This document shows, one piece after another, positions 38,617 through 45,842 of a stretch of 64,000 nucleotides of DNA (the stretch's first letter is position 1; each line of letters starts with the position of its first letter). The stretch is from Deltaproteobacteria bacterium (lineage in GTDB: Bacteria > Desulfobacterota > Dissulfuribacteria > Dissulfuribacterales > UBA3076): positions 1 through 64,000 of the forward strand of contig JAGYNZ010000008.1 of the NCBI GenBank assembly GCA_018399745.1, given 5' to 3'. The notes below the pieces were generated by a model. That model was given only the letters and a program-made list of their open reading frames with translations. It had not been told where the DNA came from and made no database searches. The position numbers and the translations under genes were made by a program.

Positions 38617-39291
38617 ATGTCACTTGTTAGGGCGGAAGTACTTGAAAAAACGTATATAGCCGGCGAAATTACTGTCAGGGCCATACGCGGAGTTGATTTT
38701 GACATTGAACGGGCTTCATTTGTTGCTTTTGTCGGCCCGTCAGGAAGCGGAAAAAGTACTCTGCTGAACATGATTGGTTGTCTTGACTTTCCAACCAGCG
38801 GCTTTCTTGAAGTCGCAGGGCAGGATGTGACAGGTCTTCGCTCAAGGGAATCGGCCCGTTTTCGGGGAGAGCATATTGGTTTCATTTTTCAGGATTTCAA
38901 CCTAATTTCCGTACTCACTGTATTTGAAAATGTGGAATATCCTTTGCTGATGGTGCAAAACTGGCCGAAGCAGAAACGGCAGAAACGGGTACAGGAGTTG
39001 TTAAAATCAGTGGAAATGGCGGATCAGGGAACCAAATACCCCAGCCAGATCTCCGGTGGCCAGAAGCAGCGGGTGGCAGTGGCGCGTGCCCTGGTTACCA
39101 ATGCCAAACTGGTGCTTGCCGATGAACCCACTGCCAACCTGGACAGTAAGACCTCCAACCGTATTATTGAACTTATGAAAGATATGCGGGATGAGTTCGG
39201 CACCACCTTTATCTTCTCGACCCATGACCCCAAAGTGATGAAGAACGCTGAAACTATTTTTACCCTGGAAGACGGAAGATTGAAAGGCTGA
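38617..39291 (+). CDS. ABC transporter ATP-binding protein, LolD/MacB type
   Basis: The 224-residue ATPase has Walker A GPSGSGKST (40-48), Q-loop FIFQDFNLIS, ABC signature ISGGQKQR, and Walker B LVLADEPT followed by ANLDSKT. The family partners FtsX-type permeases in lipoprotein release, MacB export and related envelope tasks. The permease gene follows 57 bases later. It begins the five-gene run that ends with an outer-membrane barrel. Confidence 0.93.
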   Translation: MSLVRAEVLEKTYIAGEITVRAIRGVDFDIERASFVAFVGPSGSGKSTLLNMIGCLDFPTSGFLEVAGQDVTGLRSRESARFRGEHIGFIFQDFNLISVLTVFENVEYPLLMVQNWPKQKRQKRVQELLKSVEMADQGTKYPSQISGGQKQRVAVARALVTNAKLVLADEPTANLDSKTSNRIIELMKDMRDEFGTTFIFSTHDPKVMKNAETIFTLEDGRLKG

Positions 39292-39348
39292 AGGTAGATA
39301 TACTGATAGTAACAAATAACCTTCTACCTGAACAATCTATGTAATTTT

Positions 39349-40593
39349 ATGCTCAGTATATTTAAGCTTGCTATCCGGAATCTGCAACGCTATAGGCGAC
39401 GAACCTTGCTTACCTCCGTTTTGATTACCCTGGGAGTGGTGGCGGTGCTGCTTTTCGTTTCCATATCCGGTTCCTTCAAGGCCATGATGATCGGTCAGAT
39501 CACGGATTCTATGTTGGGCCACCTGCAGGTGCACCGCAAGGGATATCTTGCTTCCATTGACAGCCTGCCCCTGGACCGTAATTTGAAAGGCAAACAGGTT
39601 GCCGAGGTAAAGGAAATTCTGGAAGGCAATGATTGCGTGGAGGCCTATTCCATGCGTATTAAGCTCGGAGCGATGTTCAGCAATTTTTCAGAGACAACCA
39701 GTATTCGGCTTAACGCGATAAATCCAAAACAAGAGATGCAGACAGTCCCCAGGCTTGCTGATCGCATCATCGAGGGGAAAAAGGAAGGCCTCCTTGACAA
39801 GGGAGAAATCCTTGTCCCCGAACTTATTGCCAAGGGAATGAAGGTCAGGACCGGCGACACCATTGTCCTGGTTGCCACCAATAAGGATGGATCGGTGAAC
39901 GGGCAGCCATTCGTGGTGCGCGGGATTCTGGAAGGTATTTCAGGGCCGGGCGGCCGGGATGGCTTCATACATCTTGACGATGCCGTGACCCTGTTGCGTA
40001 TCGAGGGCAGAGAGATTAGCGAAATTTCCATACGTTTGAAAAGCATGGGTCTTATGAGTGAGGTGTTTGATCAGCTGGAGACCCGGCTTGGATCTATTCA
40101 AGACAAAAACGGCAAGCCGGTCTTTGAAGTGCATACCTGGGAGAAGCTGTCGCCATTTTTTAATATAGCAGAGATGATTGACCTGATGACCTTTTTCATC
40201 AAAATTATGTTGGTAGCCATCGTTTTGGTGAGTATTATGAACGTTATGATCATGGCTGTTTATGAACGTATCAACGAAATTGGCACCATGGCCGCCATTG
40301 GGACCGTGCCTGGCAAGATTCTCTCTCTTTTTGTGGTGGAGGGTTTTCTGCTCGGCGTATTCGGCACTTTAATAGGTGTTGTTATCAGCCTTATCACTAT
40401 TGTCGCAATGAATACGGCCCAGATTAGTTTTAATTTCGGCCGTCAGGAAGGACTGCTTCTTTCGCCAACCATTGCCTTAAATGATGTGGTTACGGTCGCT
40501 GGAATTGTCATTACCATAGCCGTACTTGCCAGTCTGCAGCCAGCGTGGAAGGCTGCAAGGATGGACCCCATAACGGCCCTGCGTCATGTATAG
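39349..40593 (+). CDS. FtsX/LolE-type ABC transporter permease
   Basis: The 414 residues follow the type VII ABC (MacB/LolCE) plan: one N-terminal helix (about 20-40, after RNLQRYRRRTLLTSVLITLG), a large periplasmic domain (about 45-270) and three C-terminal helices, ending with the P-A-W-K-A-A-R-M-D-P pattern near the C-terminus. The periplasmic domain would collect a hydrophobic or lipoprotein substrate. It pairs with the upstream ATPase. A role analogous to LolCDE is inferred; no second permease is present, so a homodimer is expected. Confidence 0.9.
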   Translation: MLSIFKLAIRNLQRYRRRTLLTSVLITLGVVAVLLFVSISGSFKAMMIGQITDSMLGHLQVHRKGYLASIDSLPLDRNLKGKQVAEVKEILEGNDCVEAYSMRIKLGAMFSNFSETTSIRLNAINPKQEMQTVPRLADRIIEGKKEGLLDKGEILVPELIAKGMKVRTGDTIVLVATNKDGSVNGQPFVVRGILEGISGPGGRDGFIHLDDAVTLLRIEGREISEISIRLKSMGLMSEVFDQLETRLGSIQDKNGKPVFEVHTWEKLSPFFNIAEMIDLMTFFIKIMLVAIVLVSIMNVMIMAVYERINEIGTMAAIGTVPGKILSLFVVEGFLLGVFGTLIGVVISLITIVAMNTAQISFNFGRQEGLLLSPTIALNDVVTVAGIVITIAVLASLQPAWKAARMDPITALRHV

Positions 40594-40701
40594 ATCGTCA
40601 AGCAGACAGGTGAAAGGCGGAAGTTGATGAGATATAAAGCCGTTATATTTTTTGGCCCTTGTTTCCATACCTTCAGTTTAAAAGACTAAGTGGAGGAACC
40701 T

Positions 40702-41103
40702 ATGAAAATTAGAAGTACGTCAACCAGCATTGTCAGTTTATTTTTGTTCTTTTTTTTGGGTCTTGCTATAATCGCTTCTGCAGATTCAATGAAAATTGCC
40801 GTTGCTACCAGCGGCCCTGTAAAAGATGCAATCATAAGCCAAAGGGCTGCCAGAACACCGTTTTTTCTATTTTTTGATGGCAAAGGTAATTTTATTGAGG
40901 CCCTAGAGAATCCTTTCTGCGATCAGTCTCGTAACGCTGGGCCAAGGGCGGCCATGTTTCTTGCAGACAAAGGGGTGAAGCTCGTTATAGCTGGTAGTAT
41001 AGGGTCTAAAATGGGACAGGCCCTGAGGGACTATCAGATCGAATATAAAGAGGGGACCGGAGTTGCTTATGATGTGGTTCAATCAATTATTAAAGACCGT
41101 TAG
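40702..41103 (+). CDS. Exported NifX/NifB-type domain protein
   Basis: The mature part resembles the dinitrogenase iron-molybdenum cofactor biosynthesis domain (NifX, NafY, NifB C-terminus): MKIAVATSGPVKDAIISQRA, then FFLFFDGKG, and GPRAAMFLADKGVKLVIAG. Unusually, it is preceded by a clear signal peptide (about 1-27: positively charged start, long hydrophobic core, ASA site), so it should be periplasmic. I chose the ATG at 40702, preceded by GGAGG; an in-frame GTG at 40690 lies on the ribosome site. It stands between the permease and the LolA-like gene. Confidence 0.85.
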   Translation: MKIRSTSTSIVSLFLFFFLGLAIIASADSMKIAVATSGPVKDAIISQRAARTPFFLFFDGKGNFIEALENPFCDQSRNAGPRAAMFLADKGVKLVIAGSIGSKMGQALRDYQIEYKEGTGVAYDVVQSIIKDR

Positions 41104-41836
41104 CCGGATCATCATTCCTGCAGTTATTTTTTTCCTTTTTTTCTGTACAGCAGCCGTCCTTGCTCTGGATGGCAACGATATCCTGAGCCAGGTCGATAAA
41201 AACATGCAGCCCCAGTCCTATGAGATGTACCGGAAGCTGATCAACATAGAGCCTGATGGCTCAAAAAAGGAGTTTGTACTTTATACGGTTAAGAAGGGAC
41301 AGGACAAAATGGTGGCCTTGTTTATCTCGCCGGCCAGTGAAAAGGGCCGTTCCACTCTACGTCTGGGTGATAACATGTGGCTTTATATCCCTAATGTGGG
41401 AAGACCGTTACGCATCACCAGTCTTCAGTCAGTTGTGGGCGGGGTATTCAACAATTCCGATATTTTACGATTAGACTACAGTGTAGAATATAATGCGGAA
41501 AAGATAACCGATCAAGGTGATAACTATATGCTTGAACTAAAGGCCAAATCCTCCTCGGTTGCCTATAACCACTTAAAGATGAAGGTGGATAAAAAGACCC
41601 TTTTGCCGGTCACTATCGAGTGTTATGCGGTCAGCGGCATGCTCATCAAGACCCTGCACTATACGAAAATCAAGGATTTTGGGCAAGGTATCGTCAGGCC
41701 GTCAATGCTTGAGACGGACAGCCCACTCCACAAGGGGTATCGGTCTGTAATGCTTTTTGCCAAAATCAACAAGAAGGAACTACCGGACGAGGTATTTACC
41801 CTCAATTATCTGTCCAAGGTTGATGAATTGCGATAG
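41069..41836 (+). CDS. LolA-like outer-membrane lipoprotein-sorting protein
   Basis: The 255 residues contain a signal peptide (about 1-33) and the LolA-like fold of the outer membrane lipoprotein-sorting group (PF17131 type): FVLYTVKKGQDKMVALFISP, STLRLGDNMWLYIPNVGRPL and PVTIECYAVSGMLIKTLHYTKI. Such proteins often pair with RND or ABC exporters rather than LolCDE. The ATG at 41069 has GGAG six bases upstream. It overlaps the end of the NifX-like gene by 35 bases, so the two are coupled. Its substrate is unknown. Confidence 0.88.
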   Translation: MMWFNQLLKTVSRIIIPAVIFFLFFCTAAVLALDGNDILSQVDKNMQPQSYEMYRKLINIEPDGSKKEFVLYTVKKGQDKMVALFISPASEKGRSTLRLGDNMWLYIPNVGRPLRITSLQSVVGGVFNNSDILRLDYSVEYNAEKITDQGDNYMLELKAKSSSVAYNHLKMKVDKKTLLPVTIECYAVSGMLIKTLHYTKIKDFGQGIVRPSMLETDSPLHKGYRSVMLFAKINKKELPDEVFTLNYLSKVDELR

Positions 41837-43133
41837 CATAGGCCCCTGTCTCGTCGGCTTTTTGCTCGGTCTGCTTCTTCTCTCTACCGCTCTCCTGTAT
41901 GCAGATGACAAATTCAGTTTTGAACTGGAGGAGTTTGAAAGAAAGACCTTGGAAAACGGAGGCTATGCAGAGCTGAAGTTTGAGCATATGGATATTAACC
42001 ATGATTCTGCTTTTGCCAGATTAAATCTAGATCAGCCTCGGTCGACACTTGATCGCTTATACGGCAGTCTTCAGATTGACGGTTATTACACCAGAAAAAT
42101 AATTAGTTTCAATTGGGTTCTGAATGCCTATGCGCAGCAGGATAATCTGGGCTGGACTGATAAGGCAGATGTCTATGAGTCCTATGTAAACATTAAACCG
42201 ACGCCTGTTTTTACTGCAGGTGTCGGTAAAAAATTATACAGGTGGGGTACGGGCTATGCGTGGAATCCAATCGGCTTTATAAACCGTCCCAAAGATCCCA
42301 ATGATCCGGAAGAGGCGATGGAGGGTTACATAACGACTGAAGTTGATTTAATAAAGAGCTTTTCTGGATCCTTACAGACCGTTGCTTTTACCACGGCTAT
42401 TCTGCCGGTGTGGCAGGGAGTCAATGAAGATTTCGGCGAGATAAACAATGTGAATCTGGCGGCCAGACTTTATTTTCTGTATCGGGATACGGACATTGAC
42501 CTGATTTTTTACACAGGGGACAGTCGTTCCATTTCTTATGGCCTGGATTTTTCCAGAAACCTGGCGCCAAATTTTGAAGTTCACGGAGAGTTTGGCTATG
42601 TTCCCGATCAAAAAAGAGTAGTTCTGCAGGATGATGGCTCCGCCATGGTCCGGGAGAGTGCGGCACTTTCCTATCTCCTCGGTCTTCGCTATTTAACGGA
42701 AAATGATATAACCGGTATTATTGAATATTATCACAATGATGCCGGATACACCGAAGAAGAGATGGAACGTTTTTTCCAACTTAGTTCAGACGGTGAAAAC
42801 CAAGTCCTTGCATCAGGCAGTGATCTACTCCTTGAAAAGGCAAGAGACATGAGCCTGAAAAGTTATAGCAGGCCGCAAGCGGGACGTAATTATCTCTATG
42901 CAAGATTTACTCAGAAAGAACCCTTTGATATTCTATACTTTTCACCCGGTCTTTTCACAATTATCAACCTTGATGACAAGAGTTACTCCATAAGTCCACA
43001 GCTTGTTTACACTGGATTTACCAACTGGGAGTTAAGGCTGCGTTTTTCGTACCTTAATGGCGGGACATCCACTGAGTATGGCGAGAAAATGAACAGTAAT
43101 AAGCTGGAATTGAGAGTTCGCTATTTTTTTTAA
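41823..43133 (+). CDS. Putative outer-membrane beta-barrel protein
   Basis: The protein has a signal peptide (about 1-26, ending LLYA-DD) and a body of alternating amphipathic strands, with a final aromatic residue pattern LELRVRYFF that is typical of BAM-dependent barrels. I do not recognise a named family; the phrase KKLYRWGTGYAWNPIGF is conserved-looking. The ATG at 41823 overlaps the LolA-like gene and has AAGG before it; 436 residues. It ends the operon and may be the outer-membrane end of the transport route. Confidence 0.8.
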   Translation: MNCDSIGPCLVGFLLGLLLLSTALLYADDKFSFELEEFERKTLENGGYAELKFEHMDINHDSAFARLNLDQPRSTLDRLYGSLQIDGYYTRKIISFNWVLNAYAQQDNLGWTDKADVYESYVNIKPTPVFTAGVGKKLYRWGTGYAWNPIGFINRPKDPNDPEEAMEGYITTEVDLIKSFSGSLQTVAFTTAILPVWQGVNEDFGEINNVNLAARLYFLYRDTDIDLIFYTGDSRSISYGLDFSRNLAPNFEVHGEFGYVPDQKRVVLQDDGSAMVRESAALSYLLGLRYLTENDITGIIEYYHNDAGYTEEEMERFFQLSSDGENQVLASGSDLLLEKARDMSLKSYSRPQAGRNYLYARFTQKEPFDILYFSPGLFTIINLDDKSYSISPQLVYTGFTNWELRLRFSYLNGGTSTEYGEKMNSNKLELRVRYFF

Positions 43134-43142
43134 GGGCACCGG

Positions 43143-45842
43143 CTATTTACTCTCAAGCTCGGCCCAATTAACTCCCCAGCCAATATCTACCTTCAGGGGC
43201 ACGGCAAGATCCACTACGTTTTCCATGGTCTCTTTTACCATTATACTGATTCTTTTTATTTCTTTTTCCGAGGCTTCGATTATCAGCTCGTCGTGTACCT
43301 GGAGCAACAACCTGCAAGGCATTTTTTCTGCTTGAATATTTGAATCAACTTCTATCATGGCCAGCTTTATTATATCTGCCGCGGTGCCCTGAATAGGTGT
43401 GTTGATGGCAGTCCTTTCGGCAAATTCTCTTACGGCCCTGACCCTGTTCTTAATGTCAGGGATATGGCGCCTGCGACCGAGCATTGTGGTGACGTATTTC
43501 TGCTCCTTAGACTTTTCTATAGTTTCCCTTATATAACGTTTTACACCAGGATATTTTGCAAAATAGCGATCGATGAACTCCTTTGCCTGTTTATTTCCAG
43601 TGCCCAGTTCCTTTGCCAGACCATAGGCGCTTATTCCGTATATTATTCCGAAGTTAACTGTCTTGGCCGCTCTGCGCATTTCCGGCGTAACCAACTCTGG
43701 GAATACGCTAAAGACCTCTGCTGCGGTGATGCGATGAATATCTTCATTATTTCTGAAGGCATTTATCAGGGCTTCATCTCCGGAATAATGGGCGAGGACT
43801 CTCAGTTCTATCTGGGAGTAATCTGCGGATAAGAGGAGGTTTCCAGGGGCAGGGATAAAAAGCGCCCTGATTCGTCTGCCTTCTTCTGTCCTGACCGGAA
43901 TGTTCTGGAGATTAGGATCACTGGAGGAGAGCCTGCCGGTGGATGTGACAGTCTGATTAAAAGACGTGTGGACCCGACCTGTATCGGGGTTTACCATCCT
44001 CTTTAATCCATCAACATAAGTAGACTTGAGCTTTGACAGATTTCTATAGATAAGGATTTGTTGCGGAAGCTCGTGAGATTGGGCAAGTTCCTTTAGTACA
44101 TCTACGTCTGTGGAATAACCAGTCTTCTTGCGGGTCTTTTTTATCTGAGGAAGCTTGAATTTTACAAATAATATTTCTGCCAGTTGTTTTGTAGAGTTTA
44201 TATTGAATGGTTCTCCTGCAAGCCGGATAATTTTCTTATCCAGATCATATAGTCTTTGAGAAAATTCTGTTGACAGCGCATCAAGTCCTTCTCTATCAAC
44301 AAGAATTCCAGACATCTCCATTTCAGCGATAATCCGTATCAAAGGCACTTCAACCCGCTCGAGCAGTTCCCACAAGCTGCTCTCTTTTAACCTTTTCCGC
44401 AGTGCAATGTGTACAAGAGAAGTTACGTGGACATCTTCACAGGAATAGTCCCTGGCAAGCGGTAGGGGCACATAGGCAAAATTTTTCACCCTTTTCTGTT
44501 TTTCAGTTACCTCTTTAAAGGATATCATGTGGTGCCCTAACACTTCTTGCGCTATCCCGGCAAGGTTATGACGACGTTTTGAGGGATTAAGGAGGTAAGA
44601 GGCCAACATCGTGTCCACGTATATCCCTTTCAGCTCCATCCCATGGTTGGCAAGGACAATCAGATCATACTTTATGTTCTGCCCGATTTTTTCGATTTTT
44701 CGGTCTGAAAATATCGGTCCCAGGACCTTGGCCACCTGAGATAAATTGAGTTGGGGTTCCTGGCTTTCGTGCCCAATAGGGATATAAGCGGCCTTTGGCG
44801 GTGTAATGCAGAGAGATATCCCGACAATCTTTGCCTTCATGGGGAATTCGCTCGTGGTTTCCGTATCGATGACTATTCTTGAAGCCTTCCGTGCCATCTC
44901 TGCCCAGCGGACAAGATCTTTTTGGGATTGTATCAGCTCATACTCCTTAAATGAGATGGTCTGTTCCGGCACCATCTGGTCTAAAAAGCGGGTAAGATTG
45001 AATTCTTTAAAGAGCCGCCTCAGTCTTTGCTGGTCGGGTGGATTTCTGCGAAATGAGTTAATATCAAGGGAGACAGTTATGTCGTCTGCAAGGCTTACAA
45101 GCCTTCGCCAGAGGTCCAAGCGATCCTTGTGTAATTCAAGACGTTCTTTTATTTTTCCCTTTGGAAGTTCATCCAGTTGCCTGATAAGATTATCCACTGA
45201 GCCATAATTCTTTATGAGTTTTAGCGCAGTCTTTAAGCCGATTCCGGGCACGCCAGGGATGTTGTCCGATATGTCGCCTGTCAGTGTCATTACATCCAGG
45301 AATTGAACCGGTTCAAGACCGAATCTTTTATAAAAGTTATCAAGATCTGTAACTTCATCTTTCATCGAATCCCATATGCTGACTTGTGGACCGATCAACT
45401 GCAGGAGGTCTTTGTCGCCGGAAACAATTATAATATTCTGGTTACTGAGGCCCCGTGCCAGTGTGGCAATTATATCGTCTGCTTCATAGCCTTTTTTCTC
45501 GAGCTGTGTGAGACCCAGGGCATTTACTATTTCTTTTACATATGGAATCTGAACGCTCATATCATCAGGCATTGCAGGCCTGTTTGCCTTGTAATCGGTG
45601 TAGAGGTCGTGTCTGAAGGTAGTGCCTTTGGCGTCCCAAACTATAGCCACATATTCAGGATCCTTTTCCCTCAGAACCTTCCAGAGCATATTTGTGAGGC
45701 CGTATATTACCTTGGTGGGAAATCCATCATTGGCGGTCATGGGCTGACGTATGGCAAAGTAGGCCCTGTAAAGATACGAGCTGCCATCTATCAGGAATAG
45801 CGGCGGGCTGGATTTTTTATTTTGCTGATCAAGCGCTGTCAT
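43143..45842 (-). CDS. polA: DNA polymerase I
   Basis: PolA fills gaps and removes RNA primers. The 899 residues hold the 5'-3' exonuclease (about 15-300; SGDKDLLQL, GYEADDIIAT, TGDISDNIPGVPGIG), an intact DEDDy 3'-5' proofreading domain (IDTETTS, NIKYDL, YSCED) and the family A polymerase domain with STGRLSSSDPNLQNIP, SADYSQIELR and VHDELIIEA. All catalytic acids I could locate are present. It is convergent with the barrel gene and divergent from purA. Confidence 0.97.
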   Translation of the reverse strand: MTALDQQNKKSSPPLFLIDGSSYLYRAYFAIRQPMTANDGFPTKVIYGLTNMLWKVLREKDPEYVAIVWDAKGTTFRHDLYTDYKANRPAMPDDMSVQIPYVKEIVNALGLTQLEKKGYEADDIIATLARGLSNQNIIIVSGDKDLLQLIGPQVSIWDSMKDEVTDLDNFYKRFGLEPVQFLDVMTLTGDISDNIPGVPGIGLKTALKLIKNYGSVDNLIRQLDELPKGKIKERLELHKDRLDLWRRLVSLADDITVSLDINSFRRNPPDQQRLRRLFKEFNLTRFLDQMVPEQTISFKEYELIQSQKDLVRWAEMARKASRIVIDTETTSEFPMKAKIVGISLCITPPKAAYIPIGHESQEPQLNLSQVAKVLGPIFSDRKIEKIGQNIKYDLIVLANHGMELKGIYVDTMLASYLLNPSKRRHNLAGIAQEVLGHHMISFKEVTEKQKRVKNFAYVPLPLARDYSCEDVHVTSLVHIALRKRLKESSLWELLERVEVPLIRIIAEMEMSGILVDREGLDALSTEFSQRLYDLDKKIIRLAGEPFNINSTKQLAEILFVKFKLPQIKKTRKKTGYSTDVDVLKELAQSHELPQQILIYRNLSKLKSTYVDGLKRMVNPDTGRVHTSFNQTVTSTGRLSSSDPNLQNIPVRTEEGRRIRALFIPAPGNLLLSADYSQIELRVLAHYSGDEALINAFRNNEDIHRITAAEVFSVFPELVTPEMRRAAKTVNFGIIYGISAYGLAKELGTGNKQAKEFIDRYFAKYPGVKRYIRETIEKSKEQKYVTTMLGRRRHIPDIKNRVRAVREFAERTAINTPIQGTAADIIKLAMIEVDSNIQAEKMPCRLLLQVHDELIIEASEKEIKRISIMVKETMENVVDLAVPLKVDIGWGVNWAELESK

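Follow-up and report, generated by a model that had tools for sequence, protein, structure and literature searches.

The window analysed here is the whole stretch of DNA, 64,000 nucleotides of a contig from a Deltaproteobacteria bacterium. At positions 38617-43133 it carries a string of five genes, all on the + strand, encoding an ABC ATPase, an FtsX permease, an exported NifX-like protein, a LolA-like protein (PF17131) and an outer-membrane barrel. All five open reading frames of the initial annotation were found at the coordinates given there; Pfam families fit the first four products and an AlphaFold barrel model fits the last. The genes and the features discussed below are as follows.

38617..39291, + strand: ABC ATPase of the LolD/MacB class, core gene 1 (ABC_tran, E 1.4e-33; motifs read directly)
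39349..40593, + strand: FtsX-type permease with 4 TM helices and a periplasmic domain, core gene 2 (PF12704, PF02687)
39880..39900, + strand: tip of the permease hairpin, codons 178-184 (NKDGSVN), at the position of the Lol Hook (family alignment and model)
40702..41103, + strand: exported NifX-fold protein (PF02579), optional passenger (Pfam, E 3.6e-12)
41072..41836, + strand: LolA-like periplasmic carrier (PF17131), core gene 3 (E 1.1e-43; signal peptide read directly)
41823..43133, + strand: outer-membrane beta-barrel of about 18 strands, new family, core gene 4 (AF2 model; outside Pfam and NCBIfam families)
42225..42326, + strand: most conserved barrel segment, residues 135-168 (alignment of 17 barrels)

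The ABC and FtsX genes are separated by 57 nt and the FtsX and NifX-like genes by 108 nt, while the NifX-like gene overlaps the LolA-like gene, which in turn overlaps the barrel gene by 14 nt. The next gene after the barrel is polA (43143-45842), in convergent orientation. A nucleotidyltransferase gene upstream was rejected as a member of the operon; it was present only in one close relative (L039) and absent from the other loci. A scan for promoters and terminators gave no signal marking the unit, and an Rfam search of the locus gave no match.

We compared the string with the 80 best related loci. The initial annotation had allowed that the neighbourhood might not be conserved in relatives; as far as the contigs reach, the order ABC, FtsX, (NifX), LolA-like, barrel was kept in these loci. 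Among relatives with a long enough contig, the FtsX gene was found in 72/72, the ABC gene in 58/58 and the barrel gene in 77/79, the barrel being absent at 2 loci. The order of the four genes without NifX was found in Desulfobacterota, Gammaproteobacteria and several candidate phyla, and gene order is conserved far beyond chance. Protein distances of the four core proteins correlated with one another (r 0.76-0.91); for the NifX-like protein the values were lower (r 0.53-0.69). It had been proposed that all five genes form one transcription unit. A conserved unit with parts in both membranes and in the periplasm was indeed observed, but it consists of the four core genes, and the NifX-like gene, present in 27 of the 80 loci, is an optional passenger. 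Its product has a Nitro_FeMo-Co domain (E 3.6e-12) behind a signal peptide, and no conserved Cys or His was found among 24 homologues. A role as a core metal-cluster carrier was therefore unsupported, given also its optional presence and weaker distance correlation.

The ATPase has intact motifs by direct reading: Walker A GPSGSGKST, signature SGGQKQR, Walker B LVLADEPT and H-loop STHD. It scored 223 bits against the LolD model TIGR02211, below a cut-off of 307.75 that is strict, being reached by no gene of the genome (another ATPase, on C19, scored 267.5 bits). The permease matched MacB_PCD (PF12704, 6.8e-13) and FtsX (PF02687, 5.6e-12) and scored 118 bits against the lolCE model TIGR02212 (cut-off 362), whereas LolC/E of the same genome (C15) scored 391. 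Since there is a single permease gene, the permease is presumably a homodimer. The LolD/MacB-like ABC pair with one permease that had been read from the sequence agrees with the Pfam and fold matches and with LolF, the best solved sequence relative of the permease (E 5e-26). The best fold matches of its AF2 model (pLDDT 85) were LolE/LolC. The model contains a beta-hairpin (171-177/183-194), which in the alignment is 5 residues shorter than that of the genome's LolC/E; the tip residues N178, G181, S182, V183 and N184 (NxxGSVN) were invariant in 42/42 family sequences. By this alignment and model, the LolA-recruiting Hook is missing from the permease, with a short NxxGSVN-tipped hairpin in its place. 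In LolC the Hook is essential for recruiting LolA (PMC10865981).

The carrier passed the gathering score of PF17131 (30 bits) with 149.5 bits and matched PDB 3buu (NE2245) with E 4.8e-29. Of the LolA-type models, PF17131 alone was passed; PF03548 and TIGR00547 (LolA) were not. We rejected the housekeeping Lol pathway as an identity for the four genes because a canonical LolA (C2, passing TIGR00547) and LolC/E (C15, passing TIGR02212) are encoded elsewhere in the genome, and because the operon's products score below the curated Lol cut-offs and the Hook is missing. Compared with Lol systems that use LolF, the operon shares a LolD-like ATPase, a single LolC/E/F-like permease and a LolA-fold carrier, but it lacks the Hook and LolB, PF17131 replaces PF03548, and a barrel is added. 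The proposed difference from Lol therefore held for the LolCE/LolD cut-offs, the LolA family and the Hook alike, and the proposed difference from Mla also held, with an MCE domain in 0/5 proteins. MacAB-TolC has the same type VII ABC fold; here, however, ATPase and permease are separate genes, and neither a MacA adaptor nor a TolC partner was found in the operon or the recurring neighbourhood. A MacAB-TolC-like set lies elsewhere in the genome (C13).

The barrel was modelled with about 18 strands (pLDDT 83.7), and its C-terminus is RYFF. Its fold resembles those of AlgE, Occ and OmpF-type porins, with sequence identity of about 10%. The 50 top-ranked structural matches comprised AlgE, chitoporin, Occ, OmpF/OmpC, OmpM and MOMP-type barrels and no Omp85. 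Searches with Pfam, NCBIfam and named-porin profiles gave no match, and DUF1302 (PF06980) matched none of 17 barrels. In one comparison, the window barrel and the genome's own DUF1302-like barrel gave hhalign 5.5%. We therefore rejected DUF1302 or a named porin as the identity of the barrel. It had been called unfamiliar, which our searches bear out: it belongs to no known sequence family and resembles porins by fold only. Nor did the barrel and the LolA-like protein turn out to be parts of a well-described porin or lipoprotein system. Alignment of the 17 barrels gave a conserved segment, GKKxxxWGxGYAWNPxGFxxRxKDPxDPExxxEGY, which strand order in the model places in the outer-side loop joining strands 5 and 6, comparable to porin L3.

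Apart from a Borrelia cluster, our literature search turned up no account of an ABC-PF17131-barrel system, and the passages of the Seep-SRB2 genome paper that we consulted do not mention the ABC-FtsX-LolA-like-barrel set. Borrelia BBJ23-29 combines a MacB-like homodimeric ABC protein, a LolA-like protein and an outer-membrane barrel, but there the barrel is Omp85 and two TPR proteins are present, while the barrel here is AlgE/porin-like with 18 strands (PMC13078400). This cluster speaks for a second, specialised Lol-like pathway, in which the motor would extract a subset of lipoproteins, the carrier ferry them and the barrel insert them or flip them onto the cell surface, the model put forward for Borrelia. 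The LolF-like permease and LolA-like carrier point the same way. We consider this pathway rather unlikely, since the essential Hook is missing, the carrier is PF17131 and not PF03548, a full-length LolA and LolC/E are encoded elsewhere, and relatives of the cassette lie in N-acyl amino acid clusters.

The initial annotation held that LolA-like proteins of this kind usually accompany RND/MMPL exporters. This needs correction, as ABC-linked PF17131 carriers make up a whole branch of the family. In the carrier tree they are split from RND/MMPL-linked ones by one branch with 100/100 support, corresponding to one motor change; the window clade also has 100/100 support. Single-permease, double-permease and DUF1302-barrel versions all occur on the ABC-linked branch, and an OMP-like ORF adjoins other ABC+PF17131 cassettes. 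An RND-PF17131-DUF1302-like set is also present in the window's genome (C31). The RND (HAE3/MMPL)-DUF1329/LolA-like-DUF1302 exporters, including AmeABCD of Castellaniella defragrans, likewise have a motor, a LolA-superfamily carrier and an outer-membrane barrel in one operon, and deletion of AmeABCD lowers monoterpene tolerance (PMC6394551). They differ in that the motor here is an ABC pair and not RND, no AmeC-like protein is present, neither Pfam nor hhalign identifies the window barrel as DUF1302, and a branch with full support separates the carriers from the RND-linked ones that we tested.

In one related genus we observed both motors at the same place. One genome has ABC-FtsX-LolA-DUF1302 and the other RND-LolA-DUF1302, in flanking DNA that is 92-98% identical, and 38 codons of the RND gene survive as a remnant at the ABC locus. 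Thus an RND-PF17131-DUF1302 cassette, whose pump is proton-powered, was replaced in place by an ABC-FtsX-PF17131-DUF1302 cassette, which suggests that either type of motor can serve the same purpose and that the window system is an ABC-powered counterpart of the AmeABCD type. Beside these cassettes lie two genes for FeeM N-acyl amino acid synthases, as well as ThiF. A related cassette is also found on an E. coli plasmid, in a fatty-acyl/N-acyl amino acid cluster with ACP, KS, SDR, FeeM-like and enoyl-CoA hydratase genes; it has a homologous barrel (hhalign 96.6%, E 5.5e-10). The FeeM linkage is based on three lineages.

Around loci of the window family, 131 neighbour genes were scanned. They encode stress proteins (Usp), PAS/histidine sensor kinases and ArsP permeases, varying from locus to locus; no biosynthetic or catabolic neighbours and no consistent substrate pathway were found among them. 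FeeM is absent from the window's genome. With neither biosynthetic neighbours of the family nor FeeM in this genome to point to it, a lipid-like cargo would be deduced from relatives whose carriers are about 30% identical. Some of these relatives have DUF1302 barrels, for which one comparison showed no detectable kinship with the window barrel. The stress-type neighbours without biosynthesis, the AmeABCD phenotype and a patchy distribution inside genus and order would also suit an AmeABCD-like tolerance pump with an ABC motor that expels apolar compounds of foreign origin (hydrocarbons, terpenes, organometallics) instead of exporting a cell-made lipid. With neighbours differing between loci and cassette relatives tied to acyl-lipid biosynthesis, we regard such efflux as improbable.

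Transport in the reverse direction, of a hydrophobic nutrient through the barrel and the carrier to the inner-membrane ABC protein, would fit the porin-like fold and carriers of the same superfamily in hydrocarbon degraders (PMC6304351, PMC13101534). It is very unlikely, as the matched type VII (MacB/LolC) ABC proteins are exporters or mechanotransmitters and catabolic genes are absent from the neighbourhood. The FtsX-type fold is common to FtsX and MacB, so the four proteins could form a mechanical switch of the FtsEX or MacB kind, regulating the envelope and moving no molecule. We give this hardly any credence: a LolA-fold carrier and a barrel occur in nearly every member, and a related set is interchanged with an RND transporter cassette.

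Together the four core genes probably encode one route, driven by ATP, that exports an amphiphilic, lipid-like molecule with an acyl chain across the envelope. Because the LolF-like permease has no Hook, a lipid or another small amphiphile is a more likely cargo than a lipoprotein. In the proposed route, the motor would use ATP to pull the molecule from the inner membrane and pass it to the soluble PF17131 carrier, which may dock via the short NxxGSVN hairpin at the LolC/LolF Hook position. The carrier would shield the hydrophobic part of the cargo across the periplasm, and the 18-stranded barrel would serve as acceptor or exit at the outer membrane. The direction of transport, the place of docking, the transfer to the barrel and the lipid-like nature of the cargo are our inferences. 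More tentatively, with chances somewhat short of even, these systems may represent a separate, phylum-crossing class of ABC lipid exporters, with a Hook-less LolF-like motor, a PF17131 carrier, direct unloading at a dedicated barrel, and ABC and RND motors exchanged as cassettes.

Beyond LPS, phospholipids and lipoproteins, the ways in which hydrophobic molecules traverse the periplasm are poorly understood. The compact set of four genes spans phyla, has a plasmid-borne relative in E. coli and comes with a natural exchange of RND for ABC motors at one locus, which together make motor-carrier-barrel transport directly testable in a laboratory organism. Barrels encoded on the E. coli and Vibrio plasmids keep part of the conserved barrel motif.

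The initial annotation had named an ABC ATPase, an FtsX permease, a NifX-like protein and a LolA-like protein, and domain searches returned the same identities. These searches matched the fifth open reading frame, the barrel, to no family.

38617-39291, + strand, ABC ATPase (domain search)
39349-40593, + strand, FtsX permease (domain search)
40702-41103, + strand, NifX-fold protein with a signal peptide (domain search)
41072-41836, + strand, LolA-like carrier (domain search)
41823-43133, + strand, barrel (without family in domain searches)

We searched public genomes with a LolA-like profile, obtained 551 relatives and read the flanks of the best 80. Among these 80, at loci with sufficient contig, the permease lay upstream of the carrier in 72 of 72, the ATPase preceded the permease in 58 of 58, and the carrier was followed within 3 kb by a homologous barrel in 77 of 79. 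The contig of L084, one of the two loci without a barrel, stops 958 bases past the carrier. Going by record titles, the 80 loci came from Desulfobacterota, Gammaproteobacteria, Krumholzi-, Eisen- and Fermentibacteria assemblies. The proposed co-occurrence of five genes in order held for ABC, FtsX, LolA-like and barrel and failed for the NifX-like gene, which was nearby at only 27/80 loci. These exported NifX-fold proteins (window 40702-41103) form their own family, without conserved Cys or His.

Other arrangements were also observed. L065 reads ABC-FtsX-NifX-LolA-like and then response regulator, with no barrel in the remaining 1.6 kb of contig. A gene for a TsoY-family (SLAC1-type, seleno)protein lies between LolA-like and barrel genes at L071:9012-10226, L078:4771-5970 and L089:8906-10102, and adjoins the carrier at the contig end of L084. 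ArsP-like permease, ArsR-type regulator and thioredoxin-like genes flank some cassettes; Usp and PAS/histidine kinase genes flank others (L063, L087, L044, L046).

Protein distances of the four core proteins were correlated (r 0.76-0.91), those of NifX with the core more weakly (r 0.53-0.69), and the median LolA-barrel gap was 3 nt. Since common ancestry alone would also make the distances correlate, these sequence comparisons support inheritance of the core genes as one unit and are not proof of contact. In a set of 41 genomes, almost all belonging to the window's order, the barrel was restricted to the window genus and missing from some of its members, while a close carrier is present in many other families of the phylum; the simplest reading is that the whole unit was gained by horizontal transfer. 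The closest named relatives of the window genome (88 contigs, 2.65 Mb, 97.5% complete) that have the set are Deltaproteobacteria UBA3076 and one SeepSRB2 assembly.

The catalytic motifs of the ATPase are complete. The permease model (pLDDT 85) fits LolC/LolE best by fold, and its sequence matches LolF best; against the LolCE model it scores 118 bits, below the cut-off of 362 bits. We rejected the set as housekeeping Lol, as the genome holds a separate LolA (passing TIGR00547) and LolC/E (passing TIGR02212). The latter gene (L129:3298-4587, contig C15) follows lysS without an adjacent LolD; the top LolD candidate is on contig C19. MacAB-TolC-like and RND/MMPL-PF17131-barrel sets also lie elsewhere in this genome.

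The LolC Hook (residues 167-179) is essential for LolA recruitment (PMC10865981). Aligned with the genome's own LolC/E, window-family permeases lack five residues at this site and have a tight hairpin instead, as do the examined permeases of more distant PF17131-linked cassettes. The hairpin tip, N178-x-x-G-S-V-N184, was invariant in 42/42 window-family sequences and is a putative docking site for the PF17131 carrier.

In the model, the barrel is built of about 18 strands and its two termini lie on the periplasmic side; best fold matches were AlgE, chitoporin, Occ and OmpF-type porins (~10% identity). The most conserved stretch, residues 135-168, is the loop following strand 5, which strand parity in the model would place on the outer side, comparable to porin L3. 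A helical insert (311-348) lies within another outer loop.

An ABC ATPase of this kind was near 12 of 18 weaker PF17131 loci and an RND pump near 4. ABC cassettes were laid out as ABC-FtsX-LolA-barrel, LolA-FtsX-FtsX-ABC-barrel or ABC-FtsX-LolA-DUF1302, and an OMP-like ORF with a terminal aromatic residue adjoins most inspected ones having sufficient flank. In a maximum-likelihood tree of 44 carriers, with only five RND rows and long branches on two rows, ABC-linked and RND-linked carriers fell on opposite sides of a 100/100 branch (one motor change). Another 100/100 branch set off the window clade (25 rows).

Two genomes of genus g39 share a locus, HU - enolase - FeeM - FeeM - [cassette] - ThiF - nitroreductase region, where the cassette is ABC-FtsX-PF17131-DUF1302 (L134) or PF17131-DUF1302-RND (L197). 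The flanks on both sides are mostly 92-98% identical in DNA; the cassettes had no DNA similarity when compared. Directly after the DUF1302 gene, L134 retains ~38 final codons of an RND gene, in frame to the stop, FLTIQFGYLTAFTMLIALLVELTTLPILLKIVNPRIDKKK*.

L134:8549-8675 versus L197:4004-4117, RND remnant comparison at the N-acyl amino acid synthase locus

Therefore the ABC cassette replaced an RND cassette in place. A third g39 genome has the ABC version (L200; L133 is a separate contig). Searched with the model for N-acyl amino acid synthases, the two FeeM proteins gave E-values of 4e-44 and 4e-45. FeeM was uncommon in the phylum sample (21/148 genomes), but four of these genomes, from two families, have it no more than ~3 kb away from a PF17131 gene.

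Among 5,426 E. coli genomes, only NZ_CP060058 and NZ_CP060062 carry a plasmid cassette, ABC-FtsX-PF17131-barrel among SDR, ACP, FabA-like, ketoacyl synthase, FeeM-like, TPR and enoyl-CoA hydratase genes. By hhalign (96.6%, E 5.5e-10), its barrel and that of the window are remotely homologous. On the IncK2/Z plasmid, region L165 (NZ_CP060058.1 4000-30000) holds this ABC-LolA-like-barrel cassette as part of a fatty-acyl/N-acyl amino acid cluster. Aliiroseovarius and Vibrio plasmids have the identical four-gene order, the last gene being annotated 'hypothetical'.

AmeABCD, which combines an RND motor with a LolA-superfamily protein (DUF1329) and a barrel of the DUF1302 family, confers monoterpene tolerance (PMC6394551). 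Taken together, this phenotype, the motor swap and the acyl clusters point to a common job, in which small amphiphiles leave the inner membrane and are brought to the outer membrane or across it. A neighbourhood scan found no cargo encoded near the window set, and FeeM is absent from the window genome; a lipid made by the cell or an apolar compound of foreign origin would fit, and lipoproteins may be a further option. We found no description of an ABC-FtsX-PF17131-barrel set in the literature. The Borrelia BBJ23-29 cluster is a similar combination, but its barrel is Omp85 (PMC13078400).

The Aliiroseovarius and Vibrio plasmid cassettes adjoin two-component systems, that of Aliiroseovarius also a ketoacyl synthase. 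At two distant cassettes (L141, L163), genes for a LytTR or other response regulator and a histidine kinase directly follow the barrel, which suggests regulated expression.
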